Shown here: piece by piece, positions 19,112 to 28,936 of the stretch
How the letters are laid out: each line of letters opens with the position of its first letter
Position numbering within the stretch: position 1 is the first letter of the stretch
Origin: Actinomycetales bacterium
GTDB taxonomy: Bacteria; Actinomycetota; Actinomycetes; S36-B12
DNA: 64,000 bases
Direction: 5' to 3'
Assembly: GCA_016125355.1 (NCBI GenBank)
Contig: WGLX01000016.1
Location: 1 to 64,000 of the forward strand
Position numbers and translations under genes: made by a program
Notes under the pieces: model-generated
The model's input: the letters and a program-made list of their open reading frames with translations, nothing else
Databases searched by the model: none
Told to the model about the DNA's origin: nothing

Positions 19112-20197
19112 CTAGTGATCGACCTCGTTGTGGCGAATCACGACGAGCCGATCCCCGGGCTCCAGTCGGGTGATGGCGTCGGTGTCGAAGCGGTGCGCAA
19201 CCCCCTGGCGGATGACCGCGAGCACGATCTGGCCCTGCGCGTCGAGGTCCGTGGGGGACTGGCCGAGCTCATCCCTCGTGATCTCGCGCTCGCTGACTTC
19301 GAGGCCGCGTGCCGAGTCGAGCAGATCCTCCATGATCTCGCCTGCGGTGGACGACAGCAGTGAGAGGCTCATGAGCCGGCCCGCGGACTCGGCGGTGGGG
19401 ATGACGTTGTTCGCCCCGGACTGCCGGAGGATGTCCATGTTCTGGGCCTCGCGGGCGGCCGCGACGATGGTCGCGTGGGGAGCGAGACGTCGTGCCGTCA
19501 GGGTGACGAGGATGGACGTGTCGTCCTCGTTGGTGGCGACGACGACCCGGGCGGCCCGTTCGATCGCCGCATCGCGCAGCACGACCTCACGCCGGGCGTC
19601 CCCGACCACGCCGACGAATCCGTCCCGCGTGGCCTCATCGACCGCCGAACGGTCGCTGGCCACGACGACGATCTCGTTGTGGGCCGTGCCCGCATCGACG
19701 AGGGAGCGTGCGGCGGCACGGCCCTTGACGCCGTAGCCGATGATCACCGTGTGGTTGTTCACGTTGTTCCTCCAGCGGTTCGACCGCATCTGCTCGCGCG
19801 TGCGTTGCGTGAGGACCTCGATCGTCGTCCCGACCAGCACGATGAGGAAGACGAAGCGCAGTGGCGTGATCACCAGGACGTTGGCCAGTCGGGCGGATTG
19901 GCAGACCGGCGTGATGTCGCCGTAGCCGGTCGTCGACAGGGTGACCGCTGCGTAGTACAGGGAGTCGATGAACGTCATGCCGTCGCCACCGGCGGTGTCG
20001 CGGTAGCAGTCGCGCTCCTGGTAGACGATCAGCGTGGTGGCGACGAGAGCCGCGAACGCGATGAAGACGCGAACACCGATGTTGCGGATCGGGCTGAAGC
20101 GCCGTTCAGGAAACTTCAGAGGCGGTGGCTGGGACGGATCGCCCGCCAGGGTGATCCGTCGCGACTTCCGGCTGGCCATTCCACCGCTCTCTGACAT
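19112..20197 (-). CDS. Two-TM potassium channel with RCK (TrkA-N/TrkA-C) domains
   Basis: A 361-residue K+ channel subunit. Two membrane segments flank a pore loop with the selectivity filter TTGYGD (about residues 90-95). A cytosolic RCK domain follows, whose Rossmann motif is IIGYGVKGRAAA (about 150-160), and a TrkA-C-like tail (about 280-361) completes the usual MthK/Kch layout. It probably gates K+ flow in response to a ligand such as Ca2+, NAD(H) or c-di-AMP. The ATG at 20197 overlaps the upstream TauE gene by 92 nt; a second ATG at 20179 still overlaps by 74 nt. No later start leaves the N-terminus intact, so the overlap seems real. Confidence 0.88.
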   Translation of the reverse strand: MSESGGMASRKSRRITLAGDPSQPPPLKFPERRFSPIRNIGVRVFIAFAALVATTLIVYQERDCYRDTAGGDGMTFIDSLYYAAVTLSTTGYGDITPVCQSARLANVLVITPLRFVFLIVLVGTTIEVLTQRTREQMRSNRWRNNVNNHTVIIGYGVKGRAAARSLVDAGTAHNEIVVVASDRSAVDEATRDGFVGVVGDARREVVLRDAAIERAARVVVATNEDDTSILVTLTARRLAPHATIVAAAREAQNMDILRQSGANNVIPTAESAGRLMSLSLLSSTAGEIMEDLLDSARGLEVSEREITRDELGQSPTDLDAQGQIVLAVIRQGVAHRFDTDAITRLEPGDRLVVIRHNEVDH

Positions 20198-21053
20198 AGA
20201 GGACGCTCACCACAAGGGTGCCTGCGATGGCGATCATGCCAGCAACGAGGGTGGCCACGCCCAGCAGTTTCAGAGCCGTGGCCGCCAGGACGACCATGAG
20301 GAGCCACCGGAGCGCCTGTCCGTCGTAGCGCGACGACATCCGCGCGCCGATCCACACACCGGGGATCTGGCCGATCAGGAGGGACACGACGACAGCGATG
20401 CTGATCTCACCGAAGCCAGCGTGGGCGATGGCGCCGGCGATGAGCATGGGCACCGCCTGCGTGAGGTCGGTGCCGACCAGGATGGACGGCCGCAGCAGCG
20501 GGTAGAGCAGGAGCATCGTCGTCACGACGAGCGAGCCGGAGCCCACGCTCGTCATGCCGACCAGCAGTCCCACGAACACGCCCAGGAGCAGCGTCGGTCC
20601 GCGGCGGACGGGCATGTCCGTCCCGGCGGTGAGCAGCGCGGCGCGCATCCCTGAAGCGCGCCGCGCCACCCAGATCTTCGCGATCATGGCGAGGACGGCG
20701 AGGATGAGGACCCAGCCGACCCAGGTACGGATCGTGTCCCCGGCCGCGTCGGTGCCGAGCACCTTGGCGAACACGAGGGTGCCGAGGAGGACTCCGGGGA
20801 TGGAGCCCGCCGAGAGCCAGGCCACCAGGCCCCAGTGCACGGTGCGTGCCCGGATGTGGACCATCGCGCCGACCGGCTTCATGATGGCCGAGGCCACCAC
20901 GTCGCTGGACACCGCGACGGCCGGGCTCACGCCGAAGACCAGGACCAGCATCGGAGTGACGAGCGCGGCGCCCCCCATCCCGGTCAGTCCGACCATGAGC
21001 CCCGCGATGAGGCCGCCGAGCGCCAGCGCCGGATCGATCGAGAGCAGGTCCAC
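20106..21053 (-). CDS. TauE/SafE-family membrane transporter
   Basis: A 315-residue protein with 8-9 hydrophobic segments and the duplicated TauE/SafE pattern (GLTGMGGAALVTPML in the first half, GMTSVGSGSLVVTTML in the second). The family exports sulfite, sulfoacetate or related organosulfur anions, but many members are unassigned. GTG 21053 is supported by TACCGT ending 6 nt upstream and no ribosome site. It heads the operon running through the K+ channel, quinone oxidoreductase and GH88 genes. Confidence 0.84.
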   Translation of the reverse strand: MDLLSIDPALALGGLIAGLMVGLTGMGGAALVTPMLVLVFGVSPAVAVSSDVVASAIMKPVGAMVHIRARTVHWGLVAWLSAGSIPGVLLGTLVFAKVLGTDAAGDTIRTWVGWVLILAVLAMIAKIWVARRASGMRAALLTAGTDMPVRRGPTLLLGVFVGLLVGMTSVGSGSLVVTTMLLLYPLLRPSILVGTDLTQAVPMLIAGAIAHAGFGEISIAVVVSLLIGQIPGVWIGARMSSRYDGQALRWLLMVVLAATALKLLGVATLVAGMIAIAGTLVVSVLYVRERWNGQPEVATDHPGGRSVPATASEVS

Positions 21054-21115: not shown

Positions 21116-22345
21116 TCACCAGCGCGCCCGCCCCCAGCGGTCGAGCACCTCCACGACGTCGCCGCGCTGGCCCGCTCCGGGCGCGACGACGGCGATCCCG
21201 TCGGCCCGTGCCCAGCCCGCCAGGGCGTCGGCGCCGACGGCCGGCAGCGGACGTGCCTGCGTCCCTGCGCTGGACACCTCGAGGGCGACGGGCACCAGGG
21301 CGGTGTCGTCTGCGTAGTCGGCGGGCGGAGCGTCCTCCATGAGGACGGCGGCATGTCGCTCTCCCGACTCGGTGTCGCCCCGCAGGGTGGCCAGCAGCGG
21401 GCTGGCCAGCGTGACCAGGGCGGCAAGGGCGGCCGGCGGGTCGCCCGGGAGCCCCATGAGGAGTCGCCCGTCGGGCAGGCGCGCGAGCAGCATCTGCGCC
21501 CCTGGGGTGACGCTGACGCCGTCGATGAGCCAGTGCGCCCCCAGATCCCGCAGCACCTCGCGCAGGTGGTTGTCCGGCCCGGAGGCGGTGGAGCCGGTCG
21601 TGACGAGCACGTCGACGGCCGCATCGTCGATCTCCTGGAGCAGGAGGTCGCGGGTGTCCGGCGCTCGAACCGCCGGGTTCCCGCGGGCCCCCAGCGCGCC
21701 GACGAAGGCCGGAACCGCGTGACCGAGCGCATCGCGGACCCGGCCGTGGCGCGGCAGCCCACGGTCGAGCAGGTGCCCGCCGAGCACGAGGACGCCGACC
21801 ACGGGAGGCGGGACCACGTCGAGGGCGTCCAGCCCCCGGGCCGCGGCCAGGGAGATGACCGCGGGGGTCACCGGTGCCCCGGATTCCAGCAGCACATGAC
21901 CCGCCTCCGTGATCACGCCCTGCCGCAGGATCCCGCTGCCGAGGTCCGGTCGCACGCGCTCGTCAGGGAGGTCCGTGAGGGGATCGTGCATCAGGAGCTC
22001 CCGCCGACCGTCCGGCCGGGTGCGCACGGAGCCTGCCGCCTGCGGGATCACCGCGTCGGTGCTGCGCGGGATCTCCCAGCGCTCGAGAACCGGGGTGGCC
22101 CAGCCCGGCGAGAGCACGTCGAGCTCGTCCACGAGCCACGGTCCCTCGCCGCACACGGCGAAGCCGTCGGCGCGCGCGCTGTCCCGTGCTGGATCGTCCT
22201 GGACGGTCACGAGATCGCCGCCGAGGTTGCTGCCGGCCGCCTCGTCGAGGCGGGCCGAGCGCACCGGCAGGGGGCGCCCGCAGTGCGCGGCGACGGCCCG
22301 GGCCTGCGGCCAGGGCAGGACGCCATCGAGGCCGAACGTGCTCAC
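21116..22345 (-). CDS. MoeA-like (molybdopterin molybdotransferase family) protein
   Basis: A 409-residue protein related to MoeA, which inserts molybdate into adenylated molybdopterin. Recognisable landmarks are SARADGFAV near the N-terminus, the MoCF-fold block TTGSTASGPDNHL, and the late LMGLPGDPPAALA, where canonical MoeA has GLPGNP. The N-to-D change and a loose N-terminal half make it divergent. No other molybdenum-cofactor gene or molybdoenzyme is nearby. The GTG at 22345 lies inside a 17-bp hairpin, and a weak GAGCAT hexamer ends 6 nt upstream. It may be a specialised MoeA paralogue rather than the housekeeping enzyme. Confidence 0.7.
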   Translation of the reverse strand: MSTFGLDGVLPWPQARAVAAHCGRPLPVRSARLDEAAGSNLGGDLVTVQDDPARDSARADGFAVCGEGPWLVDELDVLSPGWATPVLERWEIPRSTDAVIPQAAGSVRTRPDGRRELLMHDPLTDLPDERVRPDLGSGILRQGVITEAGHVLLESGAPVTPAVISLAAARGLDALDVVPPPVVGVLVLGGHLLDRGLPRHGRVRDALGHAVPAFVGALGARGNPAVRAPDTRDLLLQEIDDAAVDVLVTTGSTASGPDNHLREVLRDLGAHWLIDGVSVTPGAQMLLARLPDGRLLMGLPGDPPAALAALVTLASPLLATLRGDTESGERHAAVLMEDAPPADYADDTALVPVALEVSSAGTQARPLPAVGADALAGWARADGIAVVAPGAGQRGDVVEVLDRWGRARW

Positions 22346-22379
22346 GGGCCCATGCTCGCATGGAGCATGGGCCCGTGAG
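22341..22379. repeat. 17-bp perfect hairpin covering the MoeA-like start codon
   Basis: Arms 22341-22357 and 22363-22379 are perfect reverse complements around a 5-nt loop (GCATG). The minus-strand GTG of the MoeA-like gene (22345) lies inside one arm. It also sits 34 nt after the stop of the upstream gene, so it could both end that transcript and control translation of the next. Confidence 0.65.
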
Positions 22380-22413
22380 GGGGGTCGCCGCGATCCGCGG
22401 GTGGGGTGGATCG

Positions 22414-23076
22414 TCAGCTGGTCTTGGTCGTCGTCTGAGCGCCGCCACCGCCGCCGCCACCGGACGGGGCAGGGGCCGCTTGCTGCTTGGGCGCTGCAGC
22501 CGGAGCCGGGGGCTTCTTCGCCGGCGCAGCGGGCTGCGCGGGCGCCGCGGGAGCGGCAGGGGCCGCGGGAACGGCAGCCTGGCTGCCCCCCGACGACTTC
22601 TTGGATGTCGTCTTCTTCGCGGGGGCCTTCCACGTCGACGTCGAGCCGCTGGAGGAGGAGACCGCCGGCGCCGACCACGTCTGGACCGATGCCGCTGCCT
22701 GGGCCCTCGCGAGCGCGGCCGCCTGCTTCTTCAGCTTGCTGGCCGTCTTGACGAGCTTGGCGCGGTAGTCGTCCAGGCGCGTCTTCTCCTGCGCGAGCGC
22801 GGCCGCGTAGGCATCCAGATCGGCCTGCGTGAGGCCCTGGGAGCTCGTGACGACGGGCTGCGCCGTATCGGTCTGCGCGACGTCGGTGCTGACCGCCAGC
22901 GAGGCATCGGTCGACTCCGGCGCCTGGGCGTTCGCCTCGGCGTTGGCCTCGATCGTCTTGGTGCCCAGCAGGCCCACGATGCCCACGCAGGTGGCGGTGG
23001 CCAGGCCGGCCGACAGGATGCGCGACGGCATGGAGGAGCGGCGCAGCGGAGCGCTGGTGACGGTGTGCCTAGTCAT
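22414..23076 (-). CDS. Membrane-anchored coiled-coil, Ala/Pro/Lys-rich protein (paralogue A)
   Basis: A 220-residue protein I do not recognise. After a basic N-terminus there is a membrane or signal segment (about residues 18-37, SAGLATATCVGIVGLLG). A helical region follows with GLTQADLDAYAAAL and a Lys-rich heptad stretch, then a long low-complexity linker of Ala/Pro/Lys, a run of glycines, and a C-terminal TTTKTS. The segments SAGLAT..CVG, GLTQA.LD.YA and the terminal TTKTS recur in the protein at 25435-25932, so the two are paralogues within one locus. It overlaps the PepSY gene by 8 nt. An anchored envelope scaffold or linker is possible. Confidence 0.72.
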   Translation of the reverse strand: MTRHTVTSAPLRRSSMPSRILSAGLATATCVGIVGLLGTKTIEANAEANAQAPESTDASLAVSTDVAQTDTAQPVVTSSQGLTQADLDAYAAALAQEKTRLDDYRAKLVKTASKLKKQAAALARAQAAASVQTWSAPAVSSSSGSTSTWKAPAKKTTSKKSSGGSQAAVPAAPAAPAAPAQPAAPAKKPPAPAAAPKQQAAPAPSGGGGGGGAQTTTKTS

Positions 23077-23788
23077 CGTCGTGCTCGCTCTCGTGCTCGT
23101 GCTCGTGGCTCGACGAGCCGGAGCTGGAGCCGCTGTTCGTCTGCGGAGCGGCGGGGGCGGGAGCCTCCTGGTTGACAACCCAGTCGAAGACGACGCCGCT
23201 GCTGAGATCGACGTAGCCGGTGATGATCGAGCCATCGTGACGGAGCACCCGGATCGCCCAGGCGTCGTAGCCGCCGTGATTCTCCTTGTCAGCGTTCTTG
23301 ACGACGCCGCCGTCGGTGGCGTTCAGGACGACCTCGACGGCCTTCTCCAGGGAGATCTCCGGGGCCTGCGACTCGGACTGCGTGGCCGACGCGCTCGGGC
23401 TCGGCTTCGCAGACGGCTTCTTGGCCACCTTCTTCTTGACGACCTGCTTCTTGGTGACGGTCTGCTTCTGGACCGGGGCCGCGGGCGCCTGTCGCGTGAT
23501 CACGATGGGGCCCTGCTCCACAGTCGGCAGCTCGGGGAGCGGCTCCTCGGACAGGCTGGGCAGCGGTGCCGGAACGTCGGTCGCGACGGGGGCGCTGGTC
23601 TCCTGCGCGGTGTCGGTCACGAAGGCCGTGTCCTGGGCCTGATCGGGCTGGGGCTCCGCCAGTGCCATGGCGTGGGGTTCGGGCTGGGCACTGCTGGCGG
23701 CGTTGATCACGGCCACGCTGGCGACCGATCCGGCAACAAGGATGCTGCCGGCGGCGACCACGGTGGCGATGACGCTCGTGCGCTGCAT
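23069..23788 (-). CDS. Membrane-anchored PepSY-domain protein with His/Asp-rich tail
   Basis: A 239-residue protein with an N-terminal membrane anchor (about 7-30). An acidic/Pro linker and a Lys/Val-rich stretch follow. A PepSY-type domain (about 150-205) runs from LEKAVEVVL through GGYDAWAIRVLRHDG to YVDLSSGVVFDW. The C-terminus is Ser-rich and ends in HEHEHESEHDDD, a likely divalent-metal binding tail. PepSY domains occur in reductase and protease-linked envelope proteins. A clear AAGGAGAT ribosome site precedes ATG 23788. The gene sits between the ferric-reductase-like gene and paralogue A. The domain call rests on sequence pattern only. Confidence 0.75.
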   Translation of the reverse strand: MQRTSVIATVVAAGSILVAGSVASVAVINAASSAQPEPHAMALAEPQPDQAQDTAFVTDTAQETSAPVATDVPAPLPSLSEEPLPELPTVEQGPIVITRQAPAAPVQKQTVTKKQVVKKKVAKKPSAKPSPSASATQSESQAPEISLEKAVEVVLNATDGGVVKNADKENHGGYDAWAIRVLRHDGSIITGYVDLSSGVVFDWVVNQEAPAPAAPQTNSGSSSGSSSHEHEHESEHDDD

Positions 23789-23877
23789 TCGAATCTCCTT
23801 GGGATCCTCGGGTGGACGGGTGTTCCCTGATGAGTGCGACGGTATGGGGAACGGCCCTAGATCCGCCCCACGGTGGG

Positions 23878-23895
23878 GTTAAGCCGAGGTAAGGC
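23878..23895. promoter_or_regulatory. Tandem GTTAA/GTAAG half-site upstream of the PepSY gene
   Basis: GTTAAGC at 23878 and GTAAGGC at 23889 are 11 bp apart, one helical turn, as in OmpR-family response-regulator sites. The embedded 13-mer GCCGAGGTAAGGC (23883-23895) recurs with one change at 26009-26021. It lies about 95 nt upstream of ATG 23788 and overlaps the stop of the ferric-reductase-like gene. Confidence 0.5.
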
Positions 23896-24469
23896 TGTTG
23901 CCGGATGTGGCCGGGAACTGGCGCTGGGGGCCGGGAGCCGGCACGAAGCCGCGAGCGAGCAGGGCCATCACGACCAGCCCGGTGCCGGCGAACAGCAGCC
24001 CCACCGACCACTCGGCGAGCGCATCCGTGCCGGCGAGAACGTAGTGCGCCGTGGCGATCGGCCAGGCCGCGTAGGCGAGCAGGTGGACCCGCTTGAACCA
24101 GCGGTTGCCCGCCTGTCCCATGCGCGCGCGCAGACGACCGAGGAACGAGACCGGGATCATCAGCCAGAAGGCGATGCTGCCGAGGGCGACCGCGACGGTC
24201 TGCCAGGGCGCCGTTCCGGGGATCAGGATCTGGCCGACGGTGAAGCTGATGTAGGGATCGACGAGCAGCAGGGCCATGTGCACGGCCAGGAAGCCGAGGG
24301 CGATGGCGCCGAGCCAACGGTGCAGGTCGAGGAGTCGGATCTCCGGTGCGAGGCGCCCGAGCACGCGAGTGCGCAGCAGGATGCCCCACACGACCACGGC
24401 GGTGAGCAGCCCCCACGCGGTGATCCCGGACGCGCGGATGGCCAGCCAGGTCCAGGGAAGATCAGCCAT
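23879..24469 (-). CDS. Ferric-reductase-like transmembrane haem protein
   Basis: A 196-residue integral membrane protein with about six hydrophobic segments. Two helices carry spaced histidine pairs expected to bind two b-type haems across the membrane: H in LDLHRWLG with H in LAVHMALLL, and H in KRVHLLAY with H in ATAHYVLAG. This matches the ferric-reductase-like transmembrane (NOX/MsrQ/YedZ) fold, and no soluble flavin domain is fused. The ATG at 24469 overlaps the apbE stop by 8 nt. Next to a flavinyltransferase, it could pass electrons to covalent flavin outside the cytoplasm; this is inference. Confidence 0.82.
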   Translation of the reverse strand: MADLPWTWLAIRASGITAWGLLTAVVVWGILLRTRVLGRLAPEIRLLDLHRWLGAIALGFLAVHMALLLVDPYISFTVGQILIPGTAPWQTVAVALGSIAFWLMIPVSFLGRLRARMGQAGNRWFKRVHLLAYAAWPIATAHYVLAGTDALAEWSVGLLFAGTGLVVMALLARGFVPAPGPQRQFPATSGNSLTSA

Positions 24470-25433
24470 GGACGTGCTCCTTCGGGTGGTGGGTGGAAGG
24501 TGACATGAGGTCCTCGGGCACGGTGGTGATGTCATCCGCTGTCATCAGGATGGCAGTGACGCCGTGCGGTTCCAAGAGTTCGACGGCGGCCGCGGGCTCG
24601 AGCAGCAGTGCTGCTGTGGCCAGCACCTCGGCCTCCCAGGCCGAGTTGGCGACGAGGGTCACCTGGACCAGGGGGCTGGAGCTCATCGTCCCGGTGCGGG
24701 GATCGATGACGTGGTGGCGTCGGCCCTGCGCCCACCGGCGCTTGAGCGTCGTGGAAGTAGCCGTGCCCAGTCGGGTAGCCTCCGCGTCGAACTCCAGGAC
24801 GGTGAGCACTCGCTCGGAATGCGCGGCCGCCAGGCGCTCGTCCTGGACCGCGATTCCCCACGGGCTCGTGTCGGCACCGACGATGGATACGTCGCCTCCC
24901 AGGTTGACGAGGACACCGCTTGCGCCGGCGCCGGCGAGCTCCTCCGCGATGACATCGGCGGCCAGCCCCTTGCCGATGGCGCCGGGATCGATCCCGATGC
25001 CAGCCGGCAAGGCGACCGTGCCAGCGCGTCGATCCACCTGCACCCCGCTCATGCCCGGGGTGCTGGAGAGGACGACGTCGCTGATGGAGCCCGCGGGCCG
25101 GGCACTGACGACGTCGAAGTCGGCGTCGTAGCCGTGGGCGCGCATGGCGGCAAGGACGGTGGGATCGAACAGGCCTGCGGTGATCTCCCAGGCGGAGACC
25201 ATGCGCTCGACGAGCAGCAGCAGGTCCTCGGACACGGGGATCGGGCCCCGGCCCGCCCAGGCGTTCAGGTGGTTGAGGTCGCTGTCCTCCCGGAAGCGGC
25301 TCCAGCACTGCTCGAGCATCTCCACCCGGTCGCGTCCGAGCTGGACGAGATCCGACGCCGAGTCGCCGGGCGCGATCACCAGGATCTGGCAGTCGGTGCC
25401 CATGGCCCGGAAGTGCAGCTCGGCGTGGGACAT
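24462..25433 (-). CDS. apbE: FAD:protein FMN transferase (ApbE family)
   Basis: A 323-residue ApbE-family enzyme, which uses FAD to attach FMN covalently to Thr/Ser of an acceptor protein in the envelope. Family motifs are RAMGTDCQ at the N-terminus, GAIGKGLAADVI, LVNLGGDV and the late HHVIDPRTG. No lipobox or signal peptide is visible, so the enzyme seems cytosolic or its export is atypical. The sequence ends in a His-rich tail. A canonical acceptor motif (Dxx[ST]G[AS]T) is not found in neighbouring proteins. The gene starts 1 nt after the upstream paralogue B stop and overlaps the next gene, so the three are one operon. Confidence 0.9.
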   Translation of the reverse strand: MSHAELHFRAMGTDCQILVIAPGDSASDLVQLGRDRVEMLEQCWSRFREDSDLNHLNAWAGRGPIPVSEDLLLLVERMVSAWEITAGLFDPTVLAAMRAHGYDADFDVVSARPAGSISDVVLSSTPGMSGVQVDRRAGTVALPAGIGIDPGAIGKGLAADVIAEELAGAGASGVLVNLGGDVSIVGADTSPWGIAVQDERLAAAHSERVLTVLEFDAEATRLGTATSTTLKRRWAQGRRHHVIDPRTGTMSSSPLVQVTLVANSAWEAEVLATAALLLEPAAAVELLEPHGVTAILMTADDITTVPEDLMSPSTHHPKEHVHG

Positions 25434-25434
25434 G

Positions 25435-25932
25435 TCAGCTCGTCTTGGTGGTTGCCTGGGCGCGCTGCGGCGCGGGCTTGGGGGCGGGCTTCGGTGCGGG
25501 CTTGGCGACGGGCGCGGGCTTGGCCACGGGCTTGGGCTGCGCCACGACGGCCGGTGCCCTCGTGATCTTGGCCTTCTTGGCCGTCGTCGCCTGCTGGGAC
25601 TGCGCCTTCAGCGCCTCGGCGACGGAGACCAGCTGGGTGCGGTACGCGTCGAGCTGCGAGGCCTCCATCTGCAGCTGTCGCGCGTAGCTGTCCAGCTGCG
25701 CCTGCGTGAGGCCGGTGGACGTGGTGGGGACGCTGTCGACGGCCAGGCTGGCGGAGCCAGCCTGCGCGCCGAGGGTCGACGCCGAGGCCGCGTTGTCCGA
25801 CGCGGTTCGCGCACCGATTGCGGCGACCAGGCCCACGCAGGCGACGGTGGCCAGTCCAGCGGAGATGTAGCGGTCGGTCGTCCGGGTGCGGGACCGACGG
25901 AGCGGGGCTGCGTGCTGGTCGTTGGCGGCCAT
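25435..25932 (-). CDS. Membrane-anchored coiled-coil, Pro/Lys-rich protein (paralogue B)
   Basis: A 165-residue protein heading the apbE operon. It has a basic N-terminus and a hydrophobic anchor (about 25-45, SAGLATVACVGLVAAIG). A helical region with GLTQAQLDSYARQL and RTQLVSVAEALK comes next. A Pro-Lys-Pro-Ala linker (about 125-155) precedes a C-terminal ATTKTS. It is shorter than paralogue A but shares the anchor, the GLTQA motif and the terminal TTKTS. AAGGAG lies 6 nt before ATG 25932. The extended Pro-Lys linker would suit a protein that reaches through the cell wall. The function is unknown. Confidence 0.72.
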   Translation of the reverse strand: MAANDQHAAPLRRSRTRTTDRYISAGLATVACVGLVAAIGARTASDNAASASTLGAQAGSASLAVDSVPTTSTGLTQAQLDSYARQLQMEASQLDAYRTQLVSVAEALKAQSQQATTAKKAKITRAPAVVAQPKPVAKPAPVAKPAPKPAPKPAPQRAQATTKTS

Positions 25933-26008
25933 GATCGCTCCTTGACTCTCGGCGGCGCTGGTCGCCGTCGCAGATGAAGGTAGGGGCTGTCCAACAGGGT
26001 CTCTCCAT

Positions 26009-26033
26009 GCCGAGGTAAAGCACGAGTAAGAGC
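26009..26033. promoter_or_regulatory. Tandem GTAAA/GTAAG half-site in the TCS/apbE divergent promoter
   Basis: GTAAAGC at 26015 and GTAAGAG at 26026 are 11 bp apart. The 13-mer GCCGAGGTAAAGC (26009-26021) matches the site at 23883-23895 except for one base. It lies 77 nt upstream of paralogue B and about 80-100 nt upstream of the response-regulator gene. Confidence 0.5.
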
Positions 26034-26100
26034 AGCCGCTGCGTGTGTGGAATGCGCCTCACGAGCGCCCATGAGCACGCGCGACCGGCGCTGACCGTGC

Positions 26101-26112
26101 CACGATGTGGCC
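26101..26112 (+). promoter_or_regulatory. Leaderless -10-like element of the response regulator gene
   Basis: CACGAT (26101-26106) ends 6 nt before ATG 26113, with no ribosome site. This decides ATG 26113 over the GTG two codons upstream. Confidence 0.45.
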
Positions 26113-26766
26113 ATGAAGGTGCTCGTCGTCGAGGACGACAAGGCAGTGGCCGACCCCCTCGTCGCCGGACTGCGCCGCAACGGGATCGACACCGACCACG
26201 TGGTGTTCGCCTCACAGGTTCTCGGGGCCGCCCAGTCGGCTGATGTGGTCCTGCTCGACCTCGGACTTCCGGATGGCGACGGCCTTGAGGTCCTTCGCGA
26301 CCTGAGGCGCGTCTCGGACGTCCCCGTCATCATCGCCACCGCGCGCGGCGAGGAGACGGACCGGATCGTCGGTCTCGAACTCGGGGCCGACGACTACGTC
26401 GTCAAGCCCTTCTCGGTTCGCGAGCTCGCCGCGCGCGTGCGTGCGGTGGCACGACGCCGCCGGGTAGACGCCCCCCTCGACACCGGTCGGATCAGCGTCG
26501 ATCGCAACCGCCACCGCGTCACCGTCGACGGCGACGAGATCGACCTGACCGCGAAGGAGTTCGATCTGCTCGCGGTGCTCGCCGAGGATCCGGGCCGAGC
26601 GGTGTCGCGGCAGGAGCTGTTCTCGCGCGTCTGGGATCCGGTCTGGGTGGGCACGGGGAAGACGCTGGACGTCCACATCGCGTCACTGCGGAAGAAGCTG
26701 GGTGACGCCGACCTCATCGAGACCGTGCGAGGGGTGGGCTACCGCCTGGCAACAGGCAGCACGTGA
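26113..26766 (+). CDS. OmpR-family response regulator
   Basis: A 217-residue DNA-binding response regulator. The receiver domain (about 1-115) has the acidic pair VEDD, the phospho-acceptor Asp in LLDLGLPDGDG and the conserved Lys in VVKPFSV. The C-terminal winged helix (about 125-215) has ELTAKEFDLL-type and DVHIASLRKKLG recognition-helix patterns. It overlaps the kinase gene by 4 nt (GTGA). The tandem half-sites at 26009 and 23878 are the natural candidate targets, which would tie it to control of the apbE and PepSY operons. Confidence 0.92.
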   Translation: MKVLVVEDDKAVADPLVAGLRRNGIDTDHVVFASQVLGAAQSADVVLLDLGLPDGDGLEVLRDLRRVSDVPVIIATARGEETDRIVGLELGADDYVVKPFSVRELAARVRAVARRRRVDAPLDTGRISVDRNRHRVTVDGDEIDLTAKEFDLLAVLAEDPGRAVSRQELFSRVWDPVWVGTGKTLDVHIASLRKKLGDADLIETVRGVGYRLATGST

Positions 26767-28157
26767 CTCGACGCCTCGTCCTGGCCATGGCGGTGCTGGT
26801 CGCGGTCGTGGCCGCCGCCCTGGCGCTGCCGTTGGCCCGAGTCGTGGCGAATGACCAGCGGGCCGCCTTCATCTCGGATCTCCAGGTCGACACGTTGTCG
26901 ACGGCCGCGTCGCTCGCGGCGCAGCCATTCGTCGACTGGCAGAAAACCTCCGAGGCGGCCGCTCAGCGGACCGGAGCGCGGGTGGTCGTGGTGTCCCCGA
27001 GCGGGTCGTTGCTGGCGGACAGCGACTTGACATCCCTCGACCGGCAGTTCGACCGTCCCGAGATCACCGCCGCGCTGGCCGGCTCGCTGACCTCGGACGT
27101 GCGCAACTCCGTGACCCTCGGAGAGCCCTTGCGGTTCGTGGCGGCGCCGGTCATCCAGAACTACGACGTCGTGGGGGCCGTGCGGCTGTCTCTCCCTGAG
27201 TCGATCGTCGACGATGAGGTGCGCGAGACCCAACGGTGGCTGGTGGCGTTCGTTGTGGCTGTCGTCTTCGGTGCGGGTGTCGTGGCGTGGCTGCTGGCCC
27301 GATCCATCTCATCACCGCTCAAGCGCGTGGCGCAGGTGGCGGAGGACCTGAAGGACGACCTCGACCTGCGTGCCGATGAGGGCCATGGGCCGCATGAGGT
27401 GCGCTCGGTGGCGATTGCCCTGAATGCCACTGCGGCGCGGCTCTCTGGCATCCTGCAGCGCACCCAACGCGTGGCTGCAGACGCCTCGCACCACCTTCGG
27501 ACCCCGCTCACCGGCGTGCGCCTGCGACTCGAGGCGATCGAGGACACCTCGGACCAGGCTGACGTGAAGGACGAGGCGCGCGCGGCGACGGCCGAGGTCG
27601 ACCGGCTCACCCACCGGATCGAGCAGGTTCTTGCCCTCGCCCGGAGCGATGTCGGCGCGGTGGCGACGGTCGTCGAGGACGTCTCCGAGGTGGTGCACAA
27701 CCGCGTGGACGCGGCCACCCCCTTGTTCGAGGAGAACGGCATCGGTCTCCACGCCCACGTCGAACCGCGGGTTCACGTGCTGGCGCCGACCGGCGCCATC
27801 GCTCGGATCGTGGACGAACTGCTCGGCAACGCCCTGCTGTATGCGGAGCACCGGGTCGACATCTCTGTGGGTATGGAGGGCCGCACGATGGTCCTCACCG
27901 TCTCGGACGACGGGCCCGGTGTCCCGGAGGGCGAGCGTGAGTCCGTGTTCGAGAGGTTCCGCCGGGGCGCGGGCTCGGTACCGGGTGGCAGTGGCCTGGG
28001 GCTGGCCCTCGTTCGGGAGACGGCCATGGCCATGGCCGGGAGCGCGCGAGCCGAGGAGTCTCCCCTGGGCGGCCTGCAGGTGGTGATCAGGATGCCGCTG
28101 GTGGACCCGGTGTCGGGTCCTCTAGGCGGGGAGGATGCGTCCCATCCCGCTGTATGA
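26763..28157 (+). CDS. Sensor histidine kinase
   Basis: A 464-residue membrane kinase paired with the upstream regulator. Two membrane segments (about 5-25 and 160-182) flank a roughly 135-residue extracytoplasmic sensor domain. HAMP follows, then a HisKA dimerisation helix with the phospho-acceptor His in ADASHHLRTPL. The HATPase domain has the N-box (NALLYAE), G1 box (DDGPGVP) and G2 box (GSGLGLAL). The sensor domain resembles no ligand-binding domain I can name. The stop lies 36 nt inside the convergent NlpC/P60 gene. Confidence 0.92.
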   Translation: MTRRLVLAMAVLVAVVAAALALPLARVVANDQRAAFISDLQVDTLSTAASLAAQPFVDWQKTSEAAAQRTGARVVVVSPSGSLLADSDLTSLDRQFDRPEITAALAGSLTSDVRNSVTLGEPLRFVAAPVIQNYDVVGAVRLSLPESIVDDEVRETQRWLVAFVVAVVFGAGVVAWLLARSISSPLKRVAQVAEDLKDDLDLRADEGHGPHEVRSVAIALNATAARLSGILQRTQRVAADASHHLRTPLTGVRLRLEAIEDTSDQADVKDEARAATAEVDRLTHRIEQVLALARSDVGAVATVVEDVSEVVHNRVDAATPLFEENGIGLHAHVEPRVHVLAPTGAIARIVDELLGNALLYAEHRVDISVGMEGRTMVLTVSDDGPGVPEGERESVFERFRRGAGSVPGGSGLGLALVRETAMAMAGSARAEESPLGGLQVVIRMPLVDPVSGPLGGEDASHPAV

Positions 28158-28739
28158 GCGTCCCCACCACGAGCCCGAGACGGGGCTGACCTTGACGCCT
28201 TCGCCGTAGCCGCGGGCGTCGATCATCCTGCCGTTGCCGATATAGATGCCCACATGGTGGGCACCGCCCCGGAAGAAGAAGACCAGGTCGCCGGGCTTGG
28301 CCTGCTTGCGGCTGATCTTCTTGACGCGCGAGTACTGGGCATGCGAGTTGTGCGGGAGGCTGCGTCCGGTGACGACCTTGTAGACATAGCGGGTCAGCCC
28401 CGAGCAGTCGAAGGCGTTCGGTCCAGAGGAACCAGCCGAGTAGCGGTCGCCCAGCTGCTTGCGGGCCACCGACACCAGCTTGGTACGCGTCGCCGCGATC
28501 TGGGCGACGTGGATGGCCTTCGCCGTGGCCTGGAGTCGCTGGGAGACCGCGGTGTTCGCGCGGGCCACGACCAGGGATCGATCGGTCACCACGAGGACCG
28601 TGGCATGGGCGGGAGTGCCCGCCCGCTGCACGGCGCTGGGCTGCCCGGCCTGCGCCGAGCGGGACAGCGCGAGGAGTCCCGAGACCAGCGTGACGACGAG
28701 GAGGAGGGCGAGCAGGGGCAGGCGCACGGCAGCGCGCAT
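28122..28739 (-). CDS. NlpC/P60-family peptidoglycan hydrolase
   Basis: A 205-residue exported cell-wall hydrolase. The N-terminal signal or anchor spans about 8-28, and a helical region follows (about 60-95). The C-terminal NlpC/P60 domain has the catalytic Cys in NAFDCSGLT and His in HHVGIYIGNG. It is expected to cut gamma-D-Glu-meso-DAP type bonds in stem peptides. ATG 28739 has AAGGAG 7 nt upstream. The gene is preceded by a ydaO-type c-di-AMP riboswitch and GTCAC repeats. Its 3' end overlaps the histidine kinase gene by 36 nt. Confidence 0.9.
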   Translation of the reverse strand: MRAAVRLPLLALLLVVTLVSGLLALSRSAQAGQPSAVQRAGTPAHATVLVVTDRSLVVARANTAVSQRLQATAKAIHVAQIAATRTKLVSVARKQLGDRYSAGSSGPNAFDCSGLTRYVYKVVTGRSLPHNSHAQYSRVKKISRKQAKPGDLVFFFRGGAHHVGIYIGNGRMIDARGYGEGVKVSPVSGSWWGRSYSGMGRILPA

Positions 28740-28754
28740 CAAGCGTCTCCTTCG

Positions 28755-28936
28755 GTGGCTGCCTCCCAGGTGAGCTGACGGGCTCGGGCGTGAAGGCCGC
28801 CCTACCGCGGTGCGCGCACCTGCGGATTCGCCCCGTGGCCAGCGAGCTGGCCGGTGGGTCCCCGGTACGACGCCACAAGGGCGTCAGATTCGGCAGGTCG
28901 CCGGCGCTCGACGGATGTCGAGGTGTCACCGGCGAC
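28755..28936 (-). ncRNA. ydaO/yuaA (c-di-AMP) riboswitch
   Basis: Read on the minus strand, the leader holds the ydaO hallmarks in order: GCCGAATC, then GGGGACCCACC (about 28866-28854), GGGGCGAATCC, GGTAGGG, and the 3' block CCCGAGCCCGTCAGCTCACC followed by TGGGAGGC (about 28790-28761). Stem-loops lie between them. In actinomycetes this class sits in front of NlpC/P60 and Rpf hydrolase genes and switches expression off when c-di-AMP binds. The element ends about 15 nt before the start codon, so it could mask the AAGGAG site or stop transcription. The 5' end is set at a predicted start near 28936. Confidence 0.85.

Follow-up and report, generated by a model that had tools for sequence, protein, structure and literature searches.

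In the 64,000-nucleotide stretch of contig WGLX01000016.1 analysed here (the window; Actinomycetales bacterium, assembly GCA_016125355.1, a metagenome-assembled genome of 3.34 Mb), a gene for the FAD:protein FMN transferase ApbE lies in one row with genes for a haem membrane protein, a PepSY protein and two paralogous anchored proteins. We consider it probable that the two paralogues, A and B, are the acceptors of this ApbE in spite of lacking a flavin-binding domain, and that the flavin mononucleotide (FMN) on their tails is fed with electrons by the two-haem protein. The sequence-only reading of this DNA had suspected an envelope redox locus based on flavinylation by ApbE, with an acceptor that may be new; our analysis supports this view and sharpens it, as the paralogues emerge as the probable acceptors. 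The features of the locus are as follows.

25435-25932, minus strand: paralogue A, 165 residues, directly 5' of apbE, with an N-terminal anchor, a helix (77-120) and a Pro/Lys/Ala arm; probable ApbE acceptor.
25438-25458, minus strand: C-terminal heptad of paralogue A, QATTKTS, with FMN predicted to be attached at Ser165 (or Thr162).
22414-23076, minus strand: paralogue B, 220 residues, with the architecture of paralogue A.
22417-22437, minus strand: C-terminal heptad of paralogue B, QTTTKTS.
24462-25433, minus strand: ApbE, 323 residues (PF02424, E 2.5e-49), with no signal peptide evident by eye.
23879-24469, minus strand: ferric-reductase-like two-haem membrane protein (ferR); the start at 24469 is preferred to a longer frame from 24535.
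23069-23788, minus strand: anchored PepSY protein with an acidic, His-rich tail ending DDD.
26107-26766, plus strand: OmpR-type response regulator.
26763-28157, plus strand: sensor histidine kinase (HAMP/HisKA), with a weak sCache-like match at residues 33-157 (E 0.0015, below the cut-off).
25933-26106, no strand: divergent intergenic region of 174 nt, the presumed control site.
21116-22345, minus strand: MoeA-like gene, next in the row after paralogue B.

The two paralogues share a basic N-terminus, a hydrophobic anchor (judged by eye), a helix, a Pro/Lys/Ala arm of variable length and the terminal heptad; the helix of paralogue A contains LTQAQLDSYARQLQ. Neither has a Pfam match at E 0.01, and this includes the FMN-binding domain FMN_bind (PF04205). 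For paralogue A, AlphaFold2 (12 sequences) predicts helices at residues 17-57 and 77-120 and no order beyond 120, where the mean pLDDT is 57. In all rows of a 12-row alignment the heptad starts with Q159 and ends with S165, while most of the preceding arm varies. There is no membrane helix after the heptad, unlike in sorting signals. The published ApbE motif is the heptad D-x-x-[ST]-G-A-[ST], with FMN on the last residue; in engineered flavin tags a terminal heptad suffices for ApbE, and mutation of the Asp at position 1 to Ala is reported to have only minor effects (PMC12052999). Both window heptads carry Ser or Thr at positions 4 and 7, as this motif does. The pattern x-x-x-[ST]-[KRQHW]-[AGST]-S, followed by at most two residues and written afterwards, describes every one of the 41 members whose C-terminus can be read, including both of the window (L040, which is cut, and one L069 protein with a run of N were dropped; the L038 and L070 rows are cut at the N-terminus; for A1, 20 of 38 trimmed rows were used).

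These tails go with apbE across the family. As a strict pattern we took [ST][GKRQH][AGST][ST] with no more than five residues after it, and as expectation the shuffles of the last 40 residues of an automatically chosen open reading frame (ORF) upstream of apbE. In the window lineage a protein with this tail adjoins apbE in 31 of 38 loci against 1.3 expected (39 loci, one without a usable ORF), and in five of the seven misses (L039, L041, L044, L046, L049) the paralogue with the tail is located after the PepSY gene instead. The neighbourhood with ApbE is kept across the family, and the co-occurrence of the paralogues with apbE, proposed as a check on the sequence-only reading, is found: 39 of 85 family genomes have both a window-type ApbE and the tail, one has ApbE only, three the tail only and 42 neither (Fisher p 1.8e-19). 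This was tallied by hand, counting as absent a 91-residue ApbE fragment (G010), a 30-residue tail fragment (G058) and weak tail matches (G041, G066). Two of the three tail-only genomes have the tail gene at a contig edge. In the third (L102, G011:C41) it lies among NuoF-like, ferredoxin-like and DoxX-Rieske-like genes, named by eye, on a 5-kb contig with no apbE.

In sister genera of the same family ApbE has diverged to about 30-36% identity, and the gene directly 5' of apbE encodes a protein of similar architecture ending DATTGAS, DTSSGAS, DTWTGSSGG, DTWTGASGG, DAYTGASGG or DTSTGASG. These are canonical or near-canonical ApbE motifs at the same place, and QASTGASGG (L114) is intermediate between the window and canonical forms. 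The strict pattern occurs in 8 of 10 loci, against 0.3 expected, in a set that joins the sister genera with an f7 genome and a few other ApbE loci. At L108, L109 and L111 the D-x-x-[ST]-G-A-S motif occurs one to three times within another protein, encoded 5' of the tail gene, and in L111 these copies sit before a long acidic tail; judged from these motifs, this protein may also be flavinylated, perhaps several times.

Beyond the family, detectable homology is not the cause of the pattern. A profile search with the paralogues placed 45 of 47 matches among 166 genomes of the order, and 11 of 12 among 394 genomes of the class, in the family itself; outside it the likeness therefore lies in tail, architecture and position. 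The strict pattern was found in 20 of 38 loci of the rest of the order (4.2 expected; order set B also held three further ApbE loci, of which L074 was a miss and L106 and L107 had no usable ORF) and in 9 of 11 first class loci (1.6 expected). Stated beforehand for a fresh class set, it was found in 19 of 37 loci against 7.2 expected (p 1.4e-5; 40 loci fetched, three without a usable ORF). A relaxed pattern, [ST]x[AGST]S, fits 31 of these 37 loci (13.9 expected), 30 of the 37 exactly at the C-terminus; as background, it also fits 38 of the 494 gene-like low-complexity ORFs at other places in these loci, several of these 38 being true tail proteins. Among 14 plasmid matches, 11 are named actinobacterial loci, with the tail ORF picked by eye; the relaxed pattern is present in all 11 and the strict one in six, the tails being HARSAGS in Rhodococcus (4), T-R-A-S in Arthrobacter (3), HTAAS in Gordonia, RSGGS in Streptomyces, VSKASGG in Mycolicibacterium and FTRGS in Nonomuraea. 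Spurious ORFs were taken automatically at L039, L040, L041, L044, L046, L049, L066 and L160, with the counts unchanged, and at L146 a tail protein is encoded some 1.8 kb away from the apbE midpoint.

The proteins that bear these ends are diverse. In other families of the order the upstream proteins have a different ectodomain and similar ends (DSNSGGS, GQSKSS), and strict-pattern misses include GQSKQS and GNSSQS. Ten tail proteins from the order and class were scanned against Pfam at E 0.01; one is a DUF2271 protein (E 6.5e-14), and the other nine gave no match. In the plasmid gene tables seen, which are incomplete by design, tail genes are listed as hypothetical or not at all. In one genus, f7 g39, the upstream proteins that lack such a tail end YGYVLTQI, CWTPNHHKKKKC or similar; at L150, L151, L155, L162, L164-L167, L169 and L170 these ends often contain Cys (CWTPNHHKKKKC, CISPTSGYHKKPKGQTCPSGYVLTQK), and this protein is possibly another type of acceptor. 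A second ApbE locus, L074 (G062:C6), has two ORFs ending TTSGGS and NTSGS. On the Arthrobacter plasmids of L241 and L242, typed as conjugative, the operon lies near arsR-type regulators.

The window ApbE has the ApbE domain and its conserved catalytic region: it aligns with Vibrio cholerae ApbE (6nxi, E 1.3e-18), the HxIDPxTG segment is kept, and the Asp of the later ADGLAT segment is Glu. In a quick tree of 141 ApbE rows it falls inside a 40-row clade (SH-aLRT 96). Position 5 of the tail is K, R, Q, H or W in 32 rows of this clade and A in one (L105); six rows are labelled by paralogue B only and one gave no reading. The ApbEs of the sister genera form an 18-row group (support 92), all with G at this position. 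Elsewhere in the tree the motif classes are mixed, and the K/R/Q/H class requires 13 changes against 36.0 with shuffled labels. The ApbE clade goes with the tail motif type (a short L069 ApbE and L116, which had no match, were dropped; the L066 class was set by hand). It is likely that Actinobacteria have a natural flavin tag, in which FMN sits on the last residues of a disordered anchored arm without a flavin-binding domain, and that the motif recognised by one ApbE lineage has changed from D-x-x-[ST]-G-A-[ST] to Q-x-x-[ST]-[K/R/Q]-[G/S/T/A]-S; the tail would be modular, occurring on a GGGGWGQYGGS-containing protein and DUF2271 as well as on coiled-coil and Ser/Thr-rich arms.

A canonical acceptor elsewhere in the genome probably does not account for the window ApbE. 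As the sequence-only reading had noted, FMN_bind is absent from the locus, and the sole PF04205 match of the genome is on another contig (C27), where it adjoins its own, separate ApbE and a longer ferric reductase. At the window locus [ST]GA[ST] is missing from all ten proteins tested, which, with the C27 acceptor having an ApbE of its own, leaves the window ApbE without a canonical partner at hand. Among 80 apbE-bearing genomes searched, FMN_bind occurs in 31, at 46 places, none of which is within 8 kb of the studied apbE loci; the other 49 have no match at all.

The haem protein matches Ferric_reduct (PF01794, E 5.4e-7, 30.1 bits against a cut-off of 28), with no NAD or FAD domain matched and no solved relative found by sequence at E 1. 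Four His residues, in two pairs 13-14 residues apart, are invariant in all 30 aligned rows, including that of the window; two bis-His haems would need such pairs, which supports the two-haem reading. NuoF-like genes accompany 31 of the 40 fresh class loci and 9 of the 39 window-lineage loci. The genes of Rhodococcus sp. BH4 run from the two-component system through the tail gene (missing from the plasmid gene table), apbE, the ferric reductase gene and the NuoF-like gene (PF01512, PF10589) to the ferredoxin gene. The presence of NuoF-like and ferredoxin genes beside the loci of relatives favours a path from NADH through ferredoxin and haem to the tail FMN in those organisms. The window has no NuoF-like gene at E 1e-6; one with 61% identity lies on contig C8 of the same genome, adjoining a ferredoxin-like ORF, and this remote pair, or quinol, may be the electron donor of the window system.

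The PepSY match (PF03413) is weak, at 18.5 bits against the Pfam cut-off of 24, and residues of about 145-210 are predicted as one folded domain (10-residue pLDDT means 87-96). With Foldseek the best matches among solved structures are YpmB, CD1622 and Rv0603, which we take to be PepSY proteins, and UipA (E 1.7e-3 to 0.17, probability 0.96-1.00), none reaching E 0.001. PF03929/PF16357, the three-helix membrane protein of the PepSY-like flavinylation system, is not matched. The tail is rich in Glu, Asp and His and ends DDD in most complete relatives. In its PepSY fold and in the closeness of its gene to a two-component system the window protein resembles UipA, described in a review as a metal binder (PMC8963506), and DbfQ (PMC12714742); it differs from them in its single PepSY domain, its long acidic/His tail and its place within an ApbE locus. 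A role as a metal-binding partner and one in regulating the two-component system are equally conceivable for it.

We propose the following mechanism, for which gene content, conservation, the tail pattern, the invariant His residues and the predicted disorder are shown by the data, while flavinylation, the direction of electron flow, the metal and the regulation are inferred. ApbE would move FMN from flavin adenine dinucleotide (FAD) onto a Ser or Thr of the terminal heptad; its last Ser is the likeliest, since FMN is accepted at that position in D-x-x-[ST]-G-A-[ST]. The FMN would then be carried on the free end of a flexible membrane-anchored arm. The two-haem protein would take electrons across the membrane and reduce the tail flavin, the electrons probably coming, in relatives, from NADH through the adjacently encoded NuoF-like protein and ferredoxin; the window locus itself has no donor gene. 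From the tail flavin they may pass to an acceptor outside the cytoplasm, which could be a metal bound to the acidic tail of PepSY; this protein is likely to hold or sense a metal ion there. Metal reduction, which the sequence-only reading had suggested along with extracellular electron transfer, is plausible as the end use, if tentative. Expression of the locus is presumably controlled by the two-component system.

Alternatively, the tail could be a C-terminal docking or protease-recognition peptide, with the window ApbE modifying the C27 FMN_bind protein or another protein. The window heptads do lack the canonical D, G and A, and the genome does have a canonical FMN_bind protein. However, that protein adjoins its own ApbE, the sister loci have a canonical heptad at the same place, 49 of the 80 apbE-bearing genomes lack FMN_bind, and no membrane helix stands behind the motif as in sorting signals; we therefore regard this explanation as improbable. 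It is highly improbable that the acceptor is the PepSY protein, through the QTNSGSS ahead of its acidic tail: the internal motifs of the protein upstream of the tail gene in L108, L109 and L111, before a long acidic tail in L111, speak for it, but the heptad is not kept in the PepSY proteins of the window lineage (e.g. L062, L071, L073), and we rejected this candidate.

Other alternatives concern the partners of the paralogues. The PepSY protein and the two-component system may form a signalling module of the DbfQRS type, in which PepSY regulates the kinase and has no role in electron transfer. DbfQ, a small PepSY protein encoded beside dbfRS, is reported to bind the kinase DbfS, and PepSY genes to lie near such systems more than 60 times more often than expected by chance (PMC12714742); likewise, UipRS is upstream of UipA (PMC8963506). 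The long acidic/His tail with its DDD end suggests a metal role, however, and at L055, L061 and L063 the kinase is present with no PepSY protein detected, so that we view the module as possible but rather unlikely. That the electrons serve envelope repair, by reduction of methionine sulfoxide or disulfides, instead of metal reduction, is suggested by the haem protein being in the same Pfam family as MsrQ-like proteins (PMC8238504), but it appears doubtful, given that ten scanned locus proteins show no match to MsrP or thioredoxin families and that the acidic PepSY partner points to a cation.

Several observations weigh against flavinylation of the paralogue tails. Compared with the published motif, the window heptads have Q for D1, K for G5 and T for A6; exchange of the Gly for Ala is reported to cause a loss of about 50% (PMC12052999), and K at position 5 is a larger change than this. 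The strict pattern missed 18 of the 37 fresh class loci and 5 of the 11 plasmid loci, and its matches in L129, L207 and L212 are in a shifted register. Both the ORF-choice rule and the relaxed pattern were set after the fresh class set had been seen, and the relaxed match in L216 is possibly a spurious ORF. The four Rhodococcus plasmid loci are near-identical, as are the three of Arthrobacter. Nor is the tail universal, as 10 of 12 f7 g39 loci have an upstream protein bearing no such end. The window ApbE has no evident signal peptide, yet the tail is predicted to be outside; the canonical ApbE of C27 also apparently starts without one (again judged by eye), and ApbEs in the cytosol are known (PMC12052999). 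Finally, joint inheritance of linked genes inflates the co-occurrence and tree statistics, and because of operon linkage the contrast between clades and motifs represents one or a few events, not many.

The Pfam scan and reading frames bear out the gene content given in the sequence-only reading: ApbE, the two-haem ferric-reductase-like protein, the PepSY protein, the two anchored paralogues and the divergent OmpR-type two-component system are all present. Its interval also holds the MoeA-like gene, which it did not name. On the minus strand the order is paralogue A, apbE, ferR, PepSY and paralogue B, with the two-component system divergent on the plus strand. The tight operons with overlaps of 1-8 nt that it described hold in part: the response regulator and kinase genes overlap by 4 nt, apbE and ferR by 8 nt if ferR starts at 24469, and the PepSY and paralogue B genes by 8 nt, but there are gaps of 1 nt from paralogue A to apbE, 90 nt from ferR to PepSY and 68 nt from paralogue B to the next gene. 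A scan of the divergent intergenic region for sigma-70-like promoters gave 0 matches.

Many relatives have the MoeA-like gene and a TauE-like gene (20106-21053, minus strand, in the window) close to the redox locus, in some cases inverted; as the strand of the MoeA-like gene varies, its membership of the system is uncertain. Adjoining the kinase is an NlpC/P60 cell-wall hydrolase gene (28122-28742), directly 5' of which lies a c-di-AMP riboswitch (28745-28905, minus strand; Rfam RF00379, 52.9 bits).

The locus is like the MsrQ-like flavinylation clusters of Actinobacteria (Meheust et al. 2021, PMC8238504) in combining apbE with a PF01794 haem protein that has two His pairs, and these clusters are reported to include a NuoF-like variant (PF10589, 31 clusters). 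They typically, if not absolutely, have an FMN-binding-domain gene, whereas at the present locus apbE has beside it a gene for a domainless protein that ends in the heptad. FMN_red of Lactococcus comes closest as a precedent; in it the ApbE site is likewise on a disordered C-terminal extension, but one belonging to a folded flavin-binding domain, of which the paralogues match none (PMC11334425). In the engineered flavin tag seven residues, best placed at a protein terminus, suffice for ApbE (PMC12052999); such flavin tagging or fixing is artificial and uses the canonical D-x-x-[ST]-G-A-[ST] (PMC12052999, PMC10722498). DUF2271 (PF10029) is a family with a proven flavinylated ApbE substrate (PMC8238504), and three actinobacterial DUF2271 proteins, encoded before apbE, lack [ST]GA[ST] and end TYTRGS or TFTRGS ([YF]TRGS).

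Our literature search, judged by titles and abstract starts and with subscription papers mostly outside its scope, found no report of disordered or proline-rich domainless ApbE substrates. The 2021 survey counts 670 genomes (4% of its dataset) with apbE but no known substrate (PMC8238504). Short disordered proteins with a terminal heptad gave no Pfam match in almost all of those scanned, so domain searches would miss them, and such proteins could explain many actinobacterial apbE genes; the similar tails beside ApbE in many actinobacteria may show where these enzymes attach flavin. If our interpretation is correct, biotechnology would gain a second flavin-tagging pair from an ApbE with a preference for K or R at position 5, and carrying the flavin on a floppy arm would give electrons a different route through a thick cell wall.

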